Origin: Deltaproteobacteria bacterium
GTDB taxonomy: Bacteria > Myxococcota_A > UBA796 > UBA9615
Direction of reading: 5' to 3'
Length of the DNA: 35,343 bases
Assembly: GCA_023954745.1 (NCBI GenBank)
Contig: JAGSHC010000038.1
Location: 1-35,343, forward strand
The first letter of the stretch is position 1; each line of letters opens with the position of its first letter. The notes beneath the pieces were generated by a model. The model had not been told where the DNA came from and made no database searches. It saw only the letters and a program-made list of their open reading frames with translations. Of the stretch, positions 6,419-35,343 are shown in pieces. A program made the translations under genes and the position numbers.

Positions 6419-6524
6419 TGGGCCTCCAGGCTCTCCTCACATGTAGACCAAGTCTCCGGGGTGGTTACGGGAAATCTTCGCGAAGACGAGAAAGGCGTTC
6501 ATGGACTCCCTCAGCGGGTCCCGC

Positions 6525-6530
6525 TACCTT
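6525..6530 (+). promoter_or_regulatory. -10-like box TACCTT upstream of the PfkB kinase
   Basis: TACCTT followed by GC-rich sequence, 48 nt before the ATG at 6579. The 160 nt divergent gap 6419-6578 holds no other feature I can support. Confidence 0.35.
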
Positions 6531-6578
6531 GCCGCGGCCGCGGTCCCCAGGGCCGCAAAAACCTCGCCCGGAGTGGTC

Positions 6579-7601
6579 ATGCACCTCGACGTCTGTGGTC
6601 TCGGAAACGCACTGGTGGACGCTCTCGTCGTCATGGACGAACGGGAGGTCATTCATCGACACGCTCTCAAGAGGGGCACGATGCACCTCGTCAGCCACGA
6701 TCGCTGGGAAGAGGTCTACGGGGAGGTCAAGGGAGGCTCGGTCGAGCTTCACCCTGGCGGATCCTGCGCCAACGCGGTGTCGACGGTGGCTCTGCTCGGA
6801 GGCAATGCCAGCTTCTGCGGGCTCGTCGGGGAAGACGAACTCGGGCAGGTGTACGGCAAGAAGCTCGAAGAGGTCCTGGGCCGTACCCACCTCGTGAGCC
6901 GCTCCGCGGTGCAGACCGGCAAGTGCCTCAGCCTCGTGTCCTCGGGAGATGCCGAGCGGACGATGCTCACGGACCTCGGCGGAACCACCGAGCTGCTGCC
7001 GGCAGACTTGCCCGTCGAGGCCATCGAGAGCGCGAGCTGGCTGCACATCACGGGCTATCTCTTCACCGGTGGAACCGTCGGCGACGCCGCCATGGAGGCG
7101 ATGGACCGCGCGCTGCACGCGGGGACGCGGATCTCGCTGGATGTGGGTGACACCTTCGTCATCGACCACTTCCGCGACGCCATCGCGACCGTCATTCGCC
7201 GCTACGCAGACGCCGTCTTCCTGAACGAGGACGAGGCGAGTCGCCTCATCGGGGGCGGCGACGCCGCTCTGGCCCTGCACGAAGTCGGCAAGTGGTCCGA
7301 GACCGTCGTCGTGAAGCTCGGCAAGCGCGGCAGCCTCATTCGTCATCAGGGCGACGTCTATCCCGTCGAAGCGCGCCCGGTGCCGGCGGTGGACACCACG
7401 GGAGCCGGAGACGCCTACGCGGGCGGCTTCCTCTATGGCCTGACCCGCGGCTGGCCGATTCAGGCGTGTGGGCGCCTCGCATCTGCCGTTGCCGCCATGA
7501 CCGTGGGTCAAGTGGGCGGCGTCATCCGAGACCGCGAGAAGCTCCAGGAGCTCCTGCCGCGGCTCGCGCCCGAGACTGCGGCCGTAGCCGCCACCCTCTA
7601 G
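6579..7601 (+). CDS. PfkB-family sugar/nucleoside kinase (adenosine-kinase-like)
   Basis: The ATG at 6579 gives the usual N-terminus MHLDVCGLGNALVD, and GGAG lies about 6 nt upstream. An in-frame ATG at 6501 would add 26 residues unlike the family. It has 340 residues. Residues 59-65 (PGGSCAN) form the substrate-binding glycine motif. DTTGAGDAYAGG (272-283) is the second PfkB signature, with catalytic base Asp278 and the anion hole. Family members phosphorylate adenosine, ribose, fructose or similar substrates with ATP in the cytoplasm. The N-terminal half (GxGNALVDxL, GGSCANAV) is closest to the adenosine-kinase-like subgroup, so the substrate is uncertain. It is monocistronic, ended by the hairpin at 7646. 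Confidence 0.88.
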   Translation: MHLDVCGLGNALVDALVVMDEREVIHRHALKRGTMHLVSHDRWEEVYGEVKGGSVELHPGGSCANAVSTVALLGGNASFCGLVGEDELGQVYGKKLEEVLGRTHLVSRSAVQTGKCLSLVSSGDAERTMLTDLGGTTELLPADLPVEAIESASWLHITGYLFTGGTVGDAAMEAMDRALHAGTRISLDVGDTFVIDHFRDAIATVIRRYADAVFLNEDEASRLIGGGDAALALHEVGKWSETVVVKLGKRGSLIRHQGDVYPVEARPVPAVDTTGAGDAYAGGFLYGLTRGWPIQACGRLASAVAAMTVGQVGGVIRDREKLQELLPRLAPETAAVAATL

Positions 7602-7683: not shown

Positions 7684-7702
7684 GTTTCGGGGTCCGGAAC
7701 GA

Positions 7703-7738
7703 GAAGAGGGCTGGCTCATTGCTGAGCCAGCCCTCTTC
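7703..7738. terminator. perfect 16 bp hairpin, terminator facing the micro-lipoprotein gene
   Basis: GAAGAGGGCTGGCTCA (7703-7718) and TGAGCCAGCCCTCTTC (7723-7738) form a perfect 16 bp stem with a TTGC tetraloop. It sits just past the stop of the minus-strand gene at 7761. On the minus strand it is followed by TCGTTCC. It could act in both directions. Confidence 0.65.
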
Positions 7739-7760: not shown

Positions 7761-7889
7761 CTATGCCGAGTCGTCGTCGTCCATGGCGGCCGAATCGTCG
7801 TCGTCGTCGTCGGCAGCGGGGCAGCCGGCGAGCACGAGGGTCGAAGAGGCGAAAGCCATCGCGAGCAGAATCATCATAAAGCGCTTCAT
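7761..7889 (-). CDS. acidic micro-lipoprotein, copy A (D6SA..D4SA)
   Basis: 42 residues with a strong AAGGAG 7-8 nt before the ATG at 7889. Residues 1-22 are a lipoprotein signal and LAGC places the lipid Cys at 23. The mature peptide is only about 20 residues: CPAA, six Asp, SAAM, four Asp, SA. At DNA level it differs from the copy at 9496-9621 by six substitutions and one extra Asp codon (GAT), yet the flanks of the two copies do not align. The product would be a lipid-anchored polyaspartate tag at the inner or outer membrane; no function is known. It is convergent with the kinase gene and immediately downstream of the metallopeptidase gene on the same strand. Confidence 0.85.
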   Translation of the reverse strand: MKRFMMILLAMAFASSTLVLAGCPAADDDDDDSAAMDDDDSA

Positions 7890-7964
7890 CAGTATCTCCT
7901 TGCAGCAGTGTTGCGAGTCATGAGGGCTTAAGGCAAGGCGCGTGCCAGTCCGTCACGTTTCTCC

Positions 7965-9386
7965 TCAATTCCAGAGGAACGCGGCGCTGACCGCGGCTCT
8001 GCGCAGATGTGCTGGCGCACCAGACAAGACCACCACGCGGCCGCCCTGTCGCTCGATCTTCGCCTTCGGCAAGCGACTCTTCGCCGCCTCCGCCACGGCG
8101 AGAGCCGCCCTTTCGGAACCCCAGTCGGAGACCCAGAGCACGACGGGCTGGCCGGGCACTGCGGTGCCCGGTTTGGATTTGTTGGGCTCGTAGACCACGA
8201 CACGGTCGCCATGCCATTCCGCCGTGAGTGCGACATTTCTGTCGCGGCTTGGGCGGACCCAGCGCGCTCCCTCTGGGCTTCCGGCGAATGGATCTCCCTG
8301 ATCTGTAAGGACAACATGAGTTAGCAGGCGTCCCAGAGCGCTGTCCCAGAGTTGTTTCCATCCGGGTAGGAATGTGCCCGGTTTCGTCAGGCCGGGCAGA
8401 AACGTGCCCGACTCCCACAGGTGCGGCGCAAGCACTTCGGCGCTGCTCTTTGGCGGACGCGCGAAAAGAAACGCGCCCATGGGGTCTTCGGGGTGTGCCT
8501 CGAGGTACCCGCTGACAAAGCGGGTGCCGACCACGTAGGGAAACAGAAGCTGGGCCCGCAGCGCGGGCGGTGTGTCCCTGGGGAGAAGCATCGTCGCGAG
8601 GTCGTCGTCGAGACCCAGGTCGAGCCCTTGTGCGAGATCCGCGGCGGACACGTTTGCCTGGTCCAGCCCGAGGAGCTCGGCGAGTTCGGCCATCATTCCC
8701 TGGTCTGCGCCCGAGGCCAGTGACTCTGGGGTCACTCCGAGCCCCCCGAGGGTGACGCGGTTCATGACGTGGCTGGCGTGTCCCTCGAGCACTGCTTGCA
8801 TCGCGGCCGCGCGGTCTTCGTCTTCGTGAGCGCCCTCGAGCCAGGTCGCCAGCGTCCAGTGCTGATCTTGCAGGGCGTGGGTGAGCTCGTGGCGGATGAC
8901 CGGTTGCTGCATGAGCGGGTGCACATCGTCGAGCAGATACAGAGTTCGAGTCTGCGGGTCGAAGAAGCCGCCCACCTGTGCGCCGTAGAGCCTGAGCACT
9001 TCGGCGCGTAGCTCCTGCTCGGGGCGCAGGAGCCCCAGCGCCTTCCAGCCGATCTCCATGGCGCGCGCGCGCTCGGGCGGGAGCTGCTCGTCGATGAGCC
9101 CCTGGACATGGGCCACGGCCTCCGCGCGGGTGATCACCTCCGCCTCGATGGGCCCCCGCCGCGGCATCGCGGCCGCTCCCTCCACCGCGGGGAGCTCCTG
9201 GCGGACCAGGGCAAGGGGGTCGACGTCTGCGCTTCCGCGGCCCATGAGCGCCTCGACCTCACGCAGCAGTTCTTCGATCTCGGGCTGGGCCGCCGAAGGC
9301 CTGGGGATCCAGACGAAGAGAGCGAGCAGGACGATTCCTACCACCCGGCTTGCGTATTGGCGGTTCCCTGGTAGAACCCCGCCCAT
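7965..9386 (-). CDS. exported HExxH zinc metallopeptidase
   Basis: 473 residues from ATG 9386, the start that gives an N-terminal hydrophobic segment (residues 13-33). An in-frame ATG 33 nt upstream is possible and neither has a good Shine-Dalgarno. Residues 163-177 contain VIRHELTHALQDQHW, with zinc ligands His166 and His170 and catalytic Glu167. Glu201 in AVLEGHASHV is the likely third ligand, as in gluzincins. Before it, GGFFDPQTRTLYLLDD is the beta-edge strand seen in these proteases. After about 290 there is a short internal repeat (SGTFLPG / PGTFLPG). Substrate unknown; it acts in the periplasm or is membrane-anchored. It is bracketed by the two micro-lipoprotein genes. Confidence 0.82.
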   Translation of the reverse strand: MGGVLPGNRQYASRVVGIVLLALFVWIPRPSAAQPEIEELLREVEALMGRGSADVDPLALVRQELPAVEGAAAMPRRGPIEAEVITRAEAVAHVQGLIDEQLPPERARAMEIGWKALGLLRPEQELRAEVLRLYGAQVGGFFDPQTRTLYLLDDVHPLMQQPVIRHELTHALQDQHWTLATWLEGAHEDEDRAAAMQAVLEGHASHVMNRVTLGGLGVTPESLASGADQGMMAELAELLGLDQANVSAADLAQGLDLGLDDDLATMLLPRDTPPALRAQLLFPYVVGTRFVSGYLEAHPEDPMGAFLFARPPKSSAEVLAPHLWESGTFLPGLTKPGTFLPGWKQLWDSALGRLLTHVVLTDQGDPFAGSPEGARWVRPSRDRNVALTAEWHGDRVVVYEPNKSKPGTAVPGQPVVLWVSDWGSERAALAVAEAAKSRLPKAKIERQGGRVVVLSGAPAHLRRAAVSAAFLWN

Positions 9387-9414
9387 GACAGGTGGATGTG
9401 TCCGCTCCGGGCGG

Positions 9415-9420
9415 TACATT
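9415..9420 (+). promoter_or_regulatory. -10-like box TACATT upstream of micro-lipoprotein copy B
   Basis: TACATT within GGTACATTCCG (9413-9423). The same 11-mer recurs at 9925-9935 before the next lipoprotein gene. The leader would be about 70 nt. Confidence 0.35.
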
Positions 9421-9495
9421 CCGAAGAAGTTGAGAGTTGACGGCGCCATTTTTCGGCGCCAGCGAGCGACCCGGACGTTCGTGGAAGGAACCGAT

Positions 9496-9621
9496 ATGAA
9501 GCGCATGATCATGATTCTCCTCGCGATGGCTTTCGCCTCCTCGACCCTCGTGCTCGCCGGCTGCCCCGCTGCCGACGACGACGACGACTCGGCCGCCATG
9601 GACGACGACGACTCGGCGTAG
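9496..9621 (+). CDS. acidic micro-lipoprotein, copy B (D5SA..D4SA)
   Basis: 41 residues, ATG 9496 with GGAAGGA about 7 nt upstream. The signal peptide and LAGC lipobox (Cys23) are nearly identical to copy A. The mature peptide is CPAADDDDDSAAMDDDDSA, with no other domain. A rho-independent terminator follows at 9671, so this is a stand-alone transcription unit. It diverges from the metallopeptidase gene across 109 nt. The near-identity with copy A points to recent duplication or gene conversion restricted to the coding region. Role unknown; a charge brush, cation binding or a sorting substrate are all guesses. Confidence 0.85.
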   Translation: MKRMIMILLAMAFASSTLVLAGCPAADDDDDSAAMDDDDSA

Positions 9622-9670
9622 TTCCGAGGCGAGCGCCGCACCTTCGGGAGAGCGGCACTCATCAGGTCAG

Positions 9671-9699
9671 AAGCCTCGCCCCTTGGGCGGGGCTTTTGT
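9671..9699 (+). terminator. rho-independent terminator of micro-lipoprotein copy B
   Basis: AAGCCTCGCC (9671-9680) pairs with GGCGGGGCTT (9686-9695, one G-T pair), 5 nt loop, followed by TTGTC, so the stem ends in a run of four T. Confidence 0.75.
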
Positions 9700-9964
9700 C
9701 GTTCCGGATGCCCTCCTCCGGGGCCAAGAGTGCCACCCACAGTCGCGCTCAGGGTGCCAGCGACGATGACCACTCCATGGACGACGACGACTCCGGCCAC
9801 TCCATGGAGCGGGCCTGGGCGGTCGCCGCCCACGTCAGAGACGGTTTCGCGCGCGTCCCTCGCACGGGGGCGCGCGCGAGATGCTTGGGCCCCACAGATC
9901 CCGCTGTCGGAGCCGGATCCCTCTGGTACATTCCGGGCGCCTCGCAGGGGGCAGGGAGTCGTCT
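9700..9964. other. intergenic stretch with D4S-like remnant and hairpin
   Basis: No supported gene lies between 9622 and 9964. Plus-strand triplets at about 9759-9810 read DDDHSMDDDDSGHSM, resembling the D4SA motif, with CCACTCCATGG repeated at 9770-9780 and 9797-9807. There is no signal peptide or credible start, so it may be a decayed gene or a regulatory stretch. A hairpin at 9847-9879 (TCGCGCGCG..CGCGCGCGA) and the TACATT box at 9927 precede the next gene. Confidence 0.4.
9927..9932 (+). promoter_or_regulatory. -10-like box TACATT for the 867-residue lipoprotein
   Basis: Part of GGTACATTCCG (9925-9935), identical to 9413-9423. It leaves a leader of about 25 nt with AGGGAG ahead of the ATG at 9965. 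Confidence 0.45.
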
Positions 9965-12568
9965 ATGTCCAGTCAGCGCTTGATTCTTCTGCTTACCGCC
10001 CTGGTGCTCGTCGCCGGTGGGTGCAAAGACGTCGAAGAACCCGGCGGCGCCACGTTCACGCCGCCATCGTCGGTGTCCGCGGCCGACTACAGCATCGTCG
10101 TGACCCCCTCCGCGAGCTCCGTGATGGCAGGAGACGAGGTCACCTTCGAGGCTCGCCTGCTCGGCCCGGACGACGAGGACCTCACCGACCAGTACGACAT
10201 CCGCACCGAACTCTCGCCCAGCATCGGCGTGCTCTTCGATGGCGCGGGTCTGTACCGCTTCACCTTCACCGACACCTACACCTACTTCGCGACTGCCGAG
10301 GTCCGAGGCGCCACCATCGTTGGGGCAGCCAGCGTCGACGTCCTGCCCGGCGGAGCCGCGGACATCGATGTCGAGCTCGAGGTGCCCATCGCCGAGGCGG
10401 GCCAGCCCGTGGGCGTGTGGGCGGAGATCAGCGACGCGTTCGGCAACCCCGCCGAGGGCGAGGTCACCTGGTCCGCGGACAGCCCCGCCATCGTCAGCGC
10501 AGGGGAAGTGCGCTCGGAGCAGACGGGGAGCTTTGCGGTCACCGGGACCCTGGCGGACGGCACGAGCGACTCGGAGGCCTTGACGGTCACCGCCTCGGAG
10601 CCGACGAGCCTCAGCATCTCCCTGTCGTCCTACGATGTGGAGAAGGGCGACGGCGTGGTCGTCAACGTCGACGTTCGCGATGCGTTCGGCAACCCCTCCA
10701 ACGCAGTGCCCGACCTCGCTGCGAGCCCGGCCGGTGCCCTGGCCTGGGGCAACTTCGTTCGCTTCGACAACGAGGGCATCTTCACGGTCTCGGCCGACCT
10801 CCCCCAGTGGGGCCTGCATGCCGAGGATGGACCAGTCCTCGTGGACTCCAGCGGGCCGTCCATCCGCGTGACGACTCCGGGGCGCGGCATCGAGATCCCC
10901 AGCTCCGATGGGCCCACGGTGCTCGTGACCGGCTCGGTCTCCGATGCCTGGACCGGCGTAGTGAGCGTGGACATCAACGGACAGCCAGCCACGTTGCTCG
11001 CCGGCGGACTCTTCGAGTTCGTGATGACGCCGGAGCAAGGGCTCAACAGCATCGAGCTGGTGGCGGTGGATGGCGACGGCAATGTGTCGGACCATCACCA
11101 GACGTTTCTCTGGGGTGAGTTCAACCCCATGGGTACGCCCCAGGAGGACGGCATCCTCGCTCGACTCAACGAGGGAGCCATCGACACCATCGAGGACCTC
11201 GCGGGCACGCTCTTCGACCCCCAGGACATCGTCAACGGGCTGATCAACCAGCCGCTGTGGTCCAATAGCCAGCAGACCTGCATCAACATCTGGCCCTTCG
11301 GGAACCAGTGCGTCACCTGGTGGTCCCTCAACGCCGGCGTCACCTCGGCGACCCTGGGCAACATGGTCATCGACCTGGACGCGCAGAACGGCTACCTGGA
11401 CTTCTTCGCGAGCATCTCGCCCTTCGCCATCGGCGGCGGCATCTGGGGGCAGCTGTTCCCCTCCGTCTCTTTCCTCAACGTGAACATCAACCTGGGGATG
11501 GAGGCGAGCTCCAACGCCGCGGAGATCGACAGTGACGTCTCCCTGTGGGTGAACTCCACCAACGACATCCAGGTGGGCATGGCCAACACGGACGTCGACC
11601 TGCCGGGGTTCAGCCTGCAGATCTACGGCGCCGGCATTCTCGGCGATGTGCTCAACCCGGTGCTCGGATGGCTGAGCCCGGTCCTCGAGGCCCTGATGGA
11701 GGCGGTGCTGCCGCCGGTCATCGAGGGACAGATCCCGGGCCTCATCGAGGATGCGCTGGGCGACATCGACATCGCCGCCACGATCCCGCTGTTCGGCACC
11801 GACATCGACATCGAGGCTCTGCCCCAGGACATCGACATCGACGTCGACGGCATGACCATCGCGCTGGAGTCGGTGGCCACCACGACACCGGGGCCCAACG
11901 CTCCGACCACCCTGGGCTCGTGGAACCGCTCCGACTACGTCGTCCCGACGTTCCCGGCGAGCCCGGACTTCGACCTGTCGATGGCTGACAACTTCGTCAA
12001 CCAGCTGCTCCACGCCGTGTGGCAGGCGGGCGTCCTGGACCTGACCATGGACAGCAGCGAGCTGGGCCTGGACCTCGCAGACCTCCAGGACTTCCTGCCC
12101 CTCACCGAGATCTCCTTCGAGACCATGCCCCTGCTGCCTCCGGTCGTGGGGCCGGCGAGCACCGGGTCTGGCCTCCTCGAGCTGGGAATCGGCGACATGA
12201 TGGTCAACGTCTACGGTGACCCCGGCGGCACCTACGGGCTGATGATGCAGCTCGCGGTGACCATCGAGGCGGACGCCGACCTCAGCATCGACTCCGACAA
12301 CTTGATTCAGTTCGGAGTGGGCACGCCCTCGGTGGTGATGAGCTTCGTGACCTCCGACTGGCCGGACCTGAACGGCGAAGTCGCCGAGGACTTGATGGAC
12401 GCGGTCGTGGACCTGCTCGCCCCCATGCTCACCGACATGCTCGGTGGCATCGGCGGCATCCCGATCCCCGAGCTCCCTGGCTTTACGCTCGGCGCTCCCA
12501 CCATCTACCGCGAGGCCGCTCCGGCCTACTACATCACAGCGGCTGGCAACCTCGTCATCGTCCCTTGA
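9965..12568 (+). CDS. 867-residue multidomain lipoprotein (Ig-like N-terminal half, amphipathic C-terminal half)
   Basis: ATG 9965 with AGGGAG upstream; lipobox VAGGC gives Cys20. Residues about 40-290 hold two or three bacterial Ig-like repeats: a VTPSASSVMAGDEVTFEARL opening, and the motif DAFGNP present twice in VxVxISDAFGNP-type strands. Residues about 300-385 resemble a glucodextranase-B/Big-type domain (SGPSIRVTTPGRG..VDGDGNVSD). From 390 on, the protein is rich in amphipathic helices and strands (LNPVLGWLSPVLEALMEAVLPPVIEGQIPGLI is split across helices) and very acidic, with repeated DIDIDV. This part has the look of a lipid-binding tubular (BPI-like) fold, but that is only an impression. 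Likely surface or outer-membrane lipoprotein, monocistronic. Confidence 0.8.
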   Translation: MSSQRLILLLTALVLVAGGCKDVEEPGGATFTPPSSVSAADYSIVVTPSASSVMAGDEVTFEARLLGPDDEDLTDQYDIRTELSPSIGVLFDGAGLYRFTFTDTYTYFATAEVRGATIVGAASVDVLPGGAADIDVELEVPIAEAGQPVGVWAEISDAFGNPAEGEVTWSADSPAIVSAGEVRSEQTGSFAVTGTLADGTSDSEALTVTASEPTSLSISLSSYDVEKGDGVVVNVDVRDAFGNPSNAVPDLAASPAGALAWGNFVRFDNEGIFTVSADLPQWGLHAEDGPVLVDSSGPSIRVTTPGRGIEIPSSDGPTVLVTGSVSDAWTGVVSVDINGQPATLLAGGLFEFVMTPEQGLNSIELVAVDGDGNVSDHHQTFLWGEFNPMGTPQEDGILARLNEGAIDTIEDLAGTLFDPQDIVNGLINQPLWSNSQQTCINIWPFGNQCVTWWSLNAGVTSATLGNMVIDLDAQNGYLDFFASISPFAIGGGIWGQLFPSVSFLNVNINLGMEASSNAAEIDSDVSLWVNSTNDIQVGMANTDVDLPGFSLQIYGAGILGDVLNPVLGWLSPVLEALMEAVLPPVIEGQIPGLIEDALGDIDIAATIPLFGTDIDIEALPQDIDIDVDGMTIALESVATTTPGPNAPTTLGSWNRSDYVVPTFPASPDFDLSMADNFVNQLLHAVWQAGVLDLTMDSSELGLDLADLQDFLPLTEISFETMPLLPPVVGPASTGSGLLELGIGDMMVNVYGDPGGTYGLMMQLAVTIEADADLSIDSDNLIQFGVGTPSVVMSFVTSDWPDLNGEVAEDLMDAVVDLLAPMLTDMLGGIGGIPIPELPGFTLGAPTIYREAAPAYYITAAGNLVIVP

Positions 12569-35090: not shown

Positions 35091-35343
35091 TCAGGTGATC
35101 CTGCGCCTGATCAGGAGCCCGATGGCCCCAAGGGCGAGCAAGGAAGGGGACCCTCGGGGTCCGGTGGAGGAGAGAGAGCACCCGCTCCTCGTGTCGTCGT
35201 CGTCGTCGTCGTCGTCGTCGTCTGCCGCGTCGTCGTCGTCTGCCGCGTCGTCGTCGTCTGCCGCGTCGTCGTCGTCTGCCGCGTCGTCGTCGTCCCCCTC
35301 CGCTTCGTAGGGGAAGAGGAACTGCCCACTGTCGTCTTCGAGC
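35091..35343 (-). CDS. Asp-Ala repeat protein with MYXO-CTERM-like tail (5' end outside window)
   Basis: The last 83 residues of a larger protein. An acidic lead (QFLFPYEAEG) is followed by four DDDDAA units, a run of ten Asp, then TRSGCSLSSTGPRG, a hydrophobic helix (SPSLLALGAIGLLI) and RRRIT. The Gly-Cys-Ser, TM helix and Arg cluster are the layout of MYXO-CTERM sorting signals (rhombosortase-type processing), by known family pattern. The stop is 24 nt upstream of the Na/Pi gene's GTG. Confidence 0.8.
   Translation of the reverse strand, partial: LEDDSGQFLFPYEAEGDDDDAADDDDAADDDDAADDDDAADDDDDDDDDDTRSGCSLSSTGPRGSPSLLALGAIGLLIRRRIT
35191..35310 (-). repeat. GAC-rich coding repeat (D4AA units and D10)
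   Basis: On the minus strand, 18 bp units of four GAC plus GCG GCA, then ten consecutive GAC codons. The array is probably prone to slippage, and assembly errors are possible here. Confidence 0.85.

Follow-up and report, generated by a model that had tools for sequence, protein, structure and literature searches.

An inverted pair of very small poly-Asp lipoprotein genes with signs of gene conversion limited to the reading frames

How two reading frames have come to be nearly the same, while the sequences on either side of them do not align, is the question raised by a locus in the genome G000 of a deltaproteobacterium (GTDB phylum Myxococcota_A). The window, i.e., the whole stretch of DNA that was analysed, spans 35,343 nucleotides and contains two lipoprotein genes that point away from each other: copy 1 (7761..7889, minus strand, 42 codons) and copy 2 (9496..9621, plus strand, 41 codons), with the products MKRFMMILLAMAFASSTLVLAGCPAADDDDDDSAAMDDDDSA (42 aa) and MKRMIMILLAMAFASSTLVLAGCPAADDDDDSAAMDDDDSA (41 aa), respectively. 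In a codon alignment, the copies differ by one Asp codon and six substitutions, located at ORF positions 10, 12, 15, 24, and 45 and at the last base; their Asp codons are GAC. As an inverted repeat (7797-7889 / 9496-9588), they clearly surpass any other in the window, with 93-nt arms that are 95% identical and 1,606 nt apart. The 100-nt flanks upstream of the two copies are not alignable with each other (z = -0.9), and the 120-nt downstream flanks align only marginally (z = 1.4). A search of the same genome with the product of one copy returned the two copies at E = 9e-21 and 1e-17 and no other match better than 5e-7, so the twin genes are a pair and not a dispersed family. The original prediction, made from the letters of the window, had described two such near-identical genes between unrelated flanks and had called for the copies to be counted; the description now stands confirmed.

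Seven genomes were available for comparison at the level of the order. In the window, copy 1 is convergent with a gene for a pfkB-family sugar kinase (6501..7601, plus strand), which forms the left anchor of a conserved neighbourhood. It is followed by a HELTH metallopeptidase-like gene with weak similarity to DUF6782 and Hvo_1808 (7965..9386, minus strand), by copy 2, and by the right anchor, a large Ig-like-domain lipoprotein gene (9965..12568, plus strand; 867 aa) with a weakly BPI-like (BPI/LBP-like) C-terminus. The arrangement is identical in G001, a member of the same genus, with both copies present. G002, from another genus, has pfkB, copy 1, copy 2, and the Ig gene, without the peptidase gene, and G005 has pfkB, copy 1, the peptidase gene, and the Ig gene, without copy 2. 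In G006, from another family, a 45-aa relative (MRKMLLALMALFAFSALAFAGCGDTSTDDDSADDDSAAADDDSAG) occupies the pfkB-side place, copy 2 is absent, and the syntenic metallopeptidase gene (locus L049, contig C159), whose product is only 32% identical, is oriented opposite to that of the window genus and G005. Syntenic orthologs of copy 1 are therefore found in G001, G002, G005, and G006, and those of copy 2 in G001 and G002. Judging from position and sequence, the pfkB-side gene is conserved at the order level, because its relative sits at the same place in another family; the prediction had been staked on conservation of this kind. In trees of the neighbouring genes, G005 and G004 branch closer to the window genus than G002 does (99.8/100 in the Ig tree), which leaves either a loss of copy 2 in G005 or two separate gains.

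The neighbourhood offers a few further observations. The 867-aa Ig-like-domain lipoprotein keeps its synteny across the order and belongs to a family without a name. Compared with G001, the window has about 150 nt more between copy 2 and the Ig gene, and this gap contains a spacer-like stretch without a signal peptide, ASDDDHSMDDDDSGHSM (9755..9810, plus strand), a possible relic of a further linker. G005 has a second gene, cut by a contig end (L083; C395 5497-5613), which has a different signal peptide and a mature start, PTPVDDDDDSSAMDDDD, equal to that of the pfkB-side gene of the same genome (L026 2166-2291).

Comparison with the relatives reveals that the flanks follow orthology while the reading frames follow paralogy. 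The 100-nt upstream flanks of the G000 copies match those of the syntenic copies in G001 with z = 8.3 and 7.7, whereas the upstream flanks of paralogs in these two genomes give z of about 0; the alignment of flanks that had been proposed as a check thus finds orthologs and not paralogs. In contrast, the reading frames are 94.3% (G000), 89.2% (G001), and 88.1% (G002) identical within a genome, as opposed to 77-78% between the orthologs of G000 and G001 and 51-58% between these and G002. Informative sites favour the grouping of paralogs by 12:1 (G000/G001) and 43:0 (G000/G002), and the orthologous topology was rejected by the AU test with four genes (p = 0.0013) and with six (p = 1.5e-5). Synonymous sites tell the same story: dS within the three genomes is 0.16, 0.48, and 0.34, compared to 0.6-0.7 for same-genus orthologs of the small genes and 0.96 for pfkB.

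The differences between paralogs are also distributed unevenly. In G002, the first 71 nt of the two copies are identical, a stretch that covers only the signal-peptide part, where 0 of 69 positions differ compared to 15 of 57 in the mature part (p = 2e-6). The G001 pair is reversed, with 12 differences among 69 positions in the signal part and one among 51 in the mature part (p = 0.007), such that the converted half differs by lineage and the mosaic tracts of G001 and G002 are opposite. In the window pair, five differences lie in the signal part, mostly within the first eight codons, but the run length is not significant on its own (p = 0.24). Since the pair is carried by only three genomes (G000, G001, and G002) and the genes have 41 codons, these tracts can be mapped only coarsely. 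In a tree of eight genes (UFBoot and FastTree), the pairs of G000 and G002 were recovered with UFBoot support of 91 and 92; the G001 pair falls short of strict monophyly, although the contrary grouping is poorly supported (UFBoot 60). Paralogs closer to each other than to orthologs, syntenic orthologs of both copies, similarity at synonymous sites, and mosaic tracts are the marks of concerted evolution, and all of them are found here. It is therefore highly probable that the twin genes have evolved in concert, through gene conversion that is limited to the ORF and passes between the inverted copies.

The original prediction had named gene conversion, cassette-like spread, and very strong constraint as possible sources of the near-identity, and only the first survives these comparisons. 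Without any exchange, the copies could be kept alike simply by selection on their DNA or protein sequence; purifying selection on the gene is real, and the mature part is of such low complexity that convergence would be easy there. Constraint of this kind, however, would hold orthologs equally alike, yet of 39 third positions, 13-14 differ between orthologs of the same genus, whereas the window copies differ at 6 of 41, and both the informative sites (12:1 and 43:0) and the AU test speak against it. Because paralogs resemble each other more closely than orthologs do, even at synonymous sites, constraint alone is rejected as a highly improbable account. Independent recent duplications in each lineage, or the arrival of the ORF as a mobile cassette, would fit the absence of copy 2 from G005 and G006, the confinement of near-identity to the ORF, and the C395 locus of G005, where another signal peptide precedes the same mature peptide. 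Set against this, the upstream flanks of both loci are orthologous between G000 and G001, and an orthologous peptidase gene separates the copies in the same order, which dates the duplication to before these two species diverged; orthologous flanks around paralogous coding sequences exclude a recent duplication, and the independent version is already refuted for G000 and G001. Moreover, the genome holds no other near-identical copy, no further repeats were found at the ORF edges, and the positions are fixed and conserved in three genomes, leaving cassette spread unsupported and this family of explanations unlikely overall. In G002, where flank similarity is weak, an independent duplication is possible and, given that G005 lacks copy 2, it requires no more steps than a single gain followed by a loss. 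Finally, the inverted pair might act, or once have acted, as a switch by which recombination turns the peptidase gene around (inversion or phase variation), with homogenisation as a by-product. Inverted repeats of 95% identity placed 1.6 kb apart would suit such a device, as would the opposite orientation of the syntenic peptidase gene in G006, but its orientation is the same in G000, G001, and G005, G006 has one copy only and a peptidase of just 32% identity, and no recombinase gene or site was identified, which makes a switch very unlikely.

What the two genes encode is nearly as unusual as their history. Both products have a positively charged start and a hydrophobic stretch followed by the lipobox LAGC. 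The signal peptide of copy 1 is MKRFMMILLAMAFASSTLVLAG and its mature peptide CPAADDDDDDSAAMDDDDSA, 20 residues; for copy 2, they are MKRMIMILLAMAFASSTLVLAG and CPAADDDDDSAAMDDDDSA, 19 residues. The pattern [AI][GA]C is present at the lipobox in all eight small lipoprotein genes compared, and the product matches the LPAM_1 profile below its cut-off. The genes almost certainly encode lipoproteins, with acylation and cleavage by signal peptidase II predicted from these features. A mature lipopeptide of 19-20 residues built from the D4SA motif had been foreseen, and the lengths agree; its description as one of the smallest lipoproteins is fair, although entericidin-type lipoproteins are of similar size. 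The mature peptide has a charge of about -9 to -10 across its 19-20 residues, and a profile search found no Pfam or NCBIfam family that covers the twin genes. NCBIfam matches of small proteins, including those to models of toxin subunits, were signal-peptide matches far under the cut-off and carry no meaning.

The same D4SA spacer recurs throughout the genome. Dozens of large lipoproteins in G000 start with a lipobox and a DDDDSA/DDDDAT spacer and continue into a folded part, so the product of the twin genes corresponds to the lipid anchor and spacer of such proteins without the folded domain, or head. The spacer also precedes MYXO-CTERM-like tags, in the window at 2268-2912 and 35091-35342 (both minus strand) and at locus L069; TIGR03901 scores these three tags at 16.6-21.5 bits, and one of the three passes the cut-off of 20. 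Tags of this kind suggest a lineage akin to the myxobacteria. The three proteins are small and secreted and consist of a signal peptide, a poly-Asp spacer, and the tag, an anchor-plus-spacer design with the anchor at the end opposite to that of the twin genes. Another complete headless acidic lipoprotein of 40 aa, MKSRLLILLSMFAFAAACVLPDGDSIYPDDDDDSAAEEEE, is encoded in G000 on C362 (19434-19550, minus strand; L072). About 15 of the 41 inspected D4SA/D4AT spacer matches reach a contig end, as on the G000 contigs C15, C326, C29, C228, C131, C170, C93, C98, C242, and C126, with similar cases in G005, because near-identical arrays of Asp repeats apparently break the assembly.

Synonymous change per site exceeds nonsynonymous change in the small lipoprotein gene (Fisher p = 0.0006 to 0.004), a comparison that had been suggested at the outset, and the gene, which persists on the pfkB side at the order level, is under purifying selection. 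This bears on whether the twin genes are non-functional, decayed stubs of larger lipoproteins, whose N-terminal anchor and spacer they do equal in sequence. Decay would sit badly with purifying selection and with a length class (40-45 aa), a place, and a stop-hairpin arrangement that are the same across an order, and it is a most improbable reading. It is hardly credible, too, that the genes form a toxin/antidote pair of the entericidin kind. The size of the precursors, the lipobox, and the presence of two paralogs do resemble the entericidin locus (PMC7296081), but neither Pfam nor NCBIfam yields an entericidin match, the mature part is polyanionic rather than amphipathic, G005 and G006 have a single copy, and the two products are kept the same where toxin and antidote should differ.

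Signals for expression surround both copies, as had been noted from the start. Copy 1 has the ribosome binding site AAGGAG (7896..7901, minus strand) and copy 2 has AAGGA (9485..9489, plus strand), and an AAGGAGA-type site is kept in the pfkB-side orthologs of G001, G002, and G005. The putative terminator of copy 1 (7703..7738, minus strand) is a perfect 16-bp stem, the longest in the window, and that of copy 2 (9668..9698, plus strand) has 14 pairs, including G-U pairs, and a T-rich 3' arm; their RNA folds give z = -7.0 and -3.5, respectively. A strong hairpin lies 3' of all copies in all genomes (z -3.4 to -7.0), and of the seven perfect stems of at least 12 bp in the roughly 245 kb read, four follow this small lipoprotein gene. 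The arms of the stems are not homologous between copies. Directly 3' of each twin-gene stem is the octamer CGTTCCGG (7694..7701, minus strand; 9700..9707, plus strand). Six of the eight small lipoprotein genes, from two families, have the pattern CGTTCYGG at a distance of 0-3 nt behind their terminator stem, with sites beyond the window at L024 6048 (minus strand), in L026 and L025 (also L010 and L012), and near L049 5312; two of the three occurrences of the octamer in the window are those at the twin-gene terminators. One more site is possible behind the second Ig gene of G006 (L038 4059). The GC-stem/T-tail pattern GGCGGGGCTTTT occurs once in the genome and the pattern TTTTTCGTTCYGG not at all. 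No sigma-70-type promoter was detected for the twin genes. Copy 1 starts about 75 nt past the co-directional peptidase gene (the gap is 75-80 nt across three genomes) and may share the transcript and promoter of that gene. Ribosome sites, terminators, and purifying selection make it plausible that both copies are active.

Taken as a whole, it is reasonably likely that the locus is an inverted paralog pair homogenised by conversion, whose product is a headless lipopeptide displayed at the cell surface. The pair would be older than the split of the two species of the genus, and probably than the family, and recurrent conversion, with short tracts ending inside the ORF or at its ends, would homogenise the reading frames. 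Each copy would yield a headless lipoprotein, i.e., a signal peptide and lipobox followed by 19-20 residues of the poly-Asp/Ser/Ala spacer that, in the larger lipoproteins of the lineage, separates the lipid anchor from the folded domain. From sequence features, we infer the processing, surface location, abundance, and selection for identity: signal peptidase II would cleave the peptide, the Cys would be acylated, and the product would be sorted to the outer membrane, where the acidic run near the Cys could act as a surface-export signal and about ten carboxylates would be displayed per molecule. If it is made in quantity, as the terminators may suggest, the peptide could form a polyanionic coat or spacer, and the two copies may be kept alike by selection for dosage or mixed assembly. 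A coat function at the surface is offered tentatively. Doubtful, though worth stating, is the stronger proposal that the ORF-limited concerted evolution has lasted because the headless poly-Asp lipopeptide is a major, uniform surface component, which would make it a new class of minimal structural lipoprotein in an uncultured, myxobacteria-like order.

Concerted evolution by gene conversion has been described before; what is new here is the 41-codon gene, together with the very short tracts and the headless family. Conversion at this locus acts on a protein gene of very small size, and its tracts end near the start and stop codons, which bears on the minimum homology that bacterial recombination requires when copies are inverted. 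The locus further defines a headless family of predicted surface lipoproteins missed by Pfam and NCBIfam, and points to a lineage-wide poly-Asp spacer beside N-terminal as well as C-terminal lipid anchors.

The closest known systems are the cases of long-lasting concerted evolution in prokaryotes, including tuf and ammonia-oxidation genes, for which 26 recurrent genes have been listed (PMC6053082). In those cases, paralogs are more alike than syntenic orthologs, synonymous sites included, and recurrent gene conversion is held responsible. The twin genes share this signature, but they are 41-codon genes without a known family, their tracts of about 45-120 nt lie inside the ORF, and the copies are inverted and 0.5-1.6 kb apart. 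To enter that list, paralogs must be monophyletic with a support of 70 or more in five or more species, and the twin genes are found in three; the claim here is for conversion at this locus, not for membership of the list. Among small lipoproteins of the surface or outer membrane, EcnA/EcnB and Atu8019 (53-aa precursor, 32 aa mature), the latter acting at the surface, likewise have almost no protein past the anchor (PMC7296081); the twin genes differ in that they match no sequence family, their mature part is poly-Asp, and the copies are homogenised, not specialised. The lipoprotein export signal (LES) of Bacteroidetes, SDDDD in B. fragilis and K-(D/E)2 in Capnocytophaga (PMC5080379), also places an acidic run a few residues from the acylated Cys. 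The mature start CPAADDDD, from another phylum, resembles it in the acidic part alone, as the run begins at +5, further from the Cys, without the preceding K or Q of the motif K-(D/E)2 or Q-A-(D/E)2 at +2 to +6; by analogy, it may work like an LES without being one. Finally, MYXO-CTERM surface anchoring involves an adjacent disordered region (PMC11980579), and the D4SA spacer adjoins MYXO-CTERM-like anchors in this genome, whereas the twin genes carry the same spacer behind an N-terminal lipobox instead of before a C-terminal tag.
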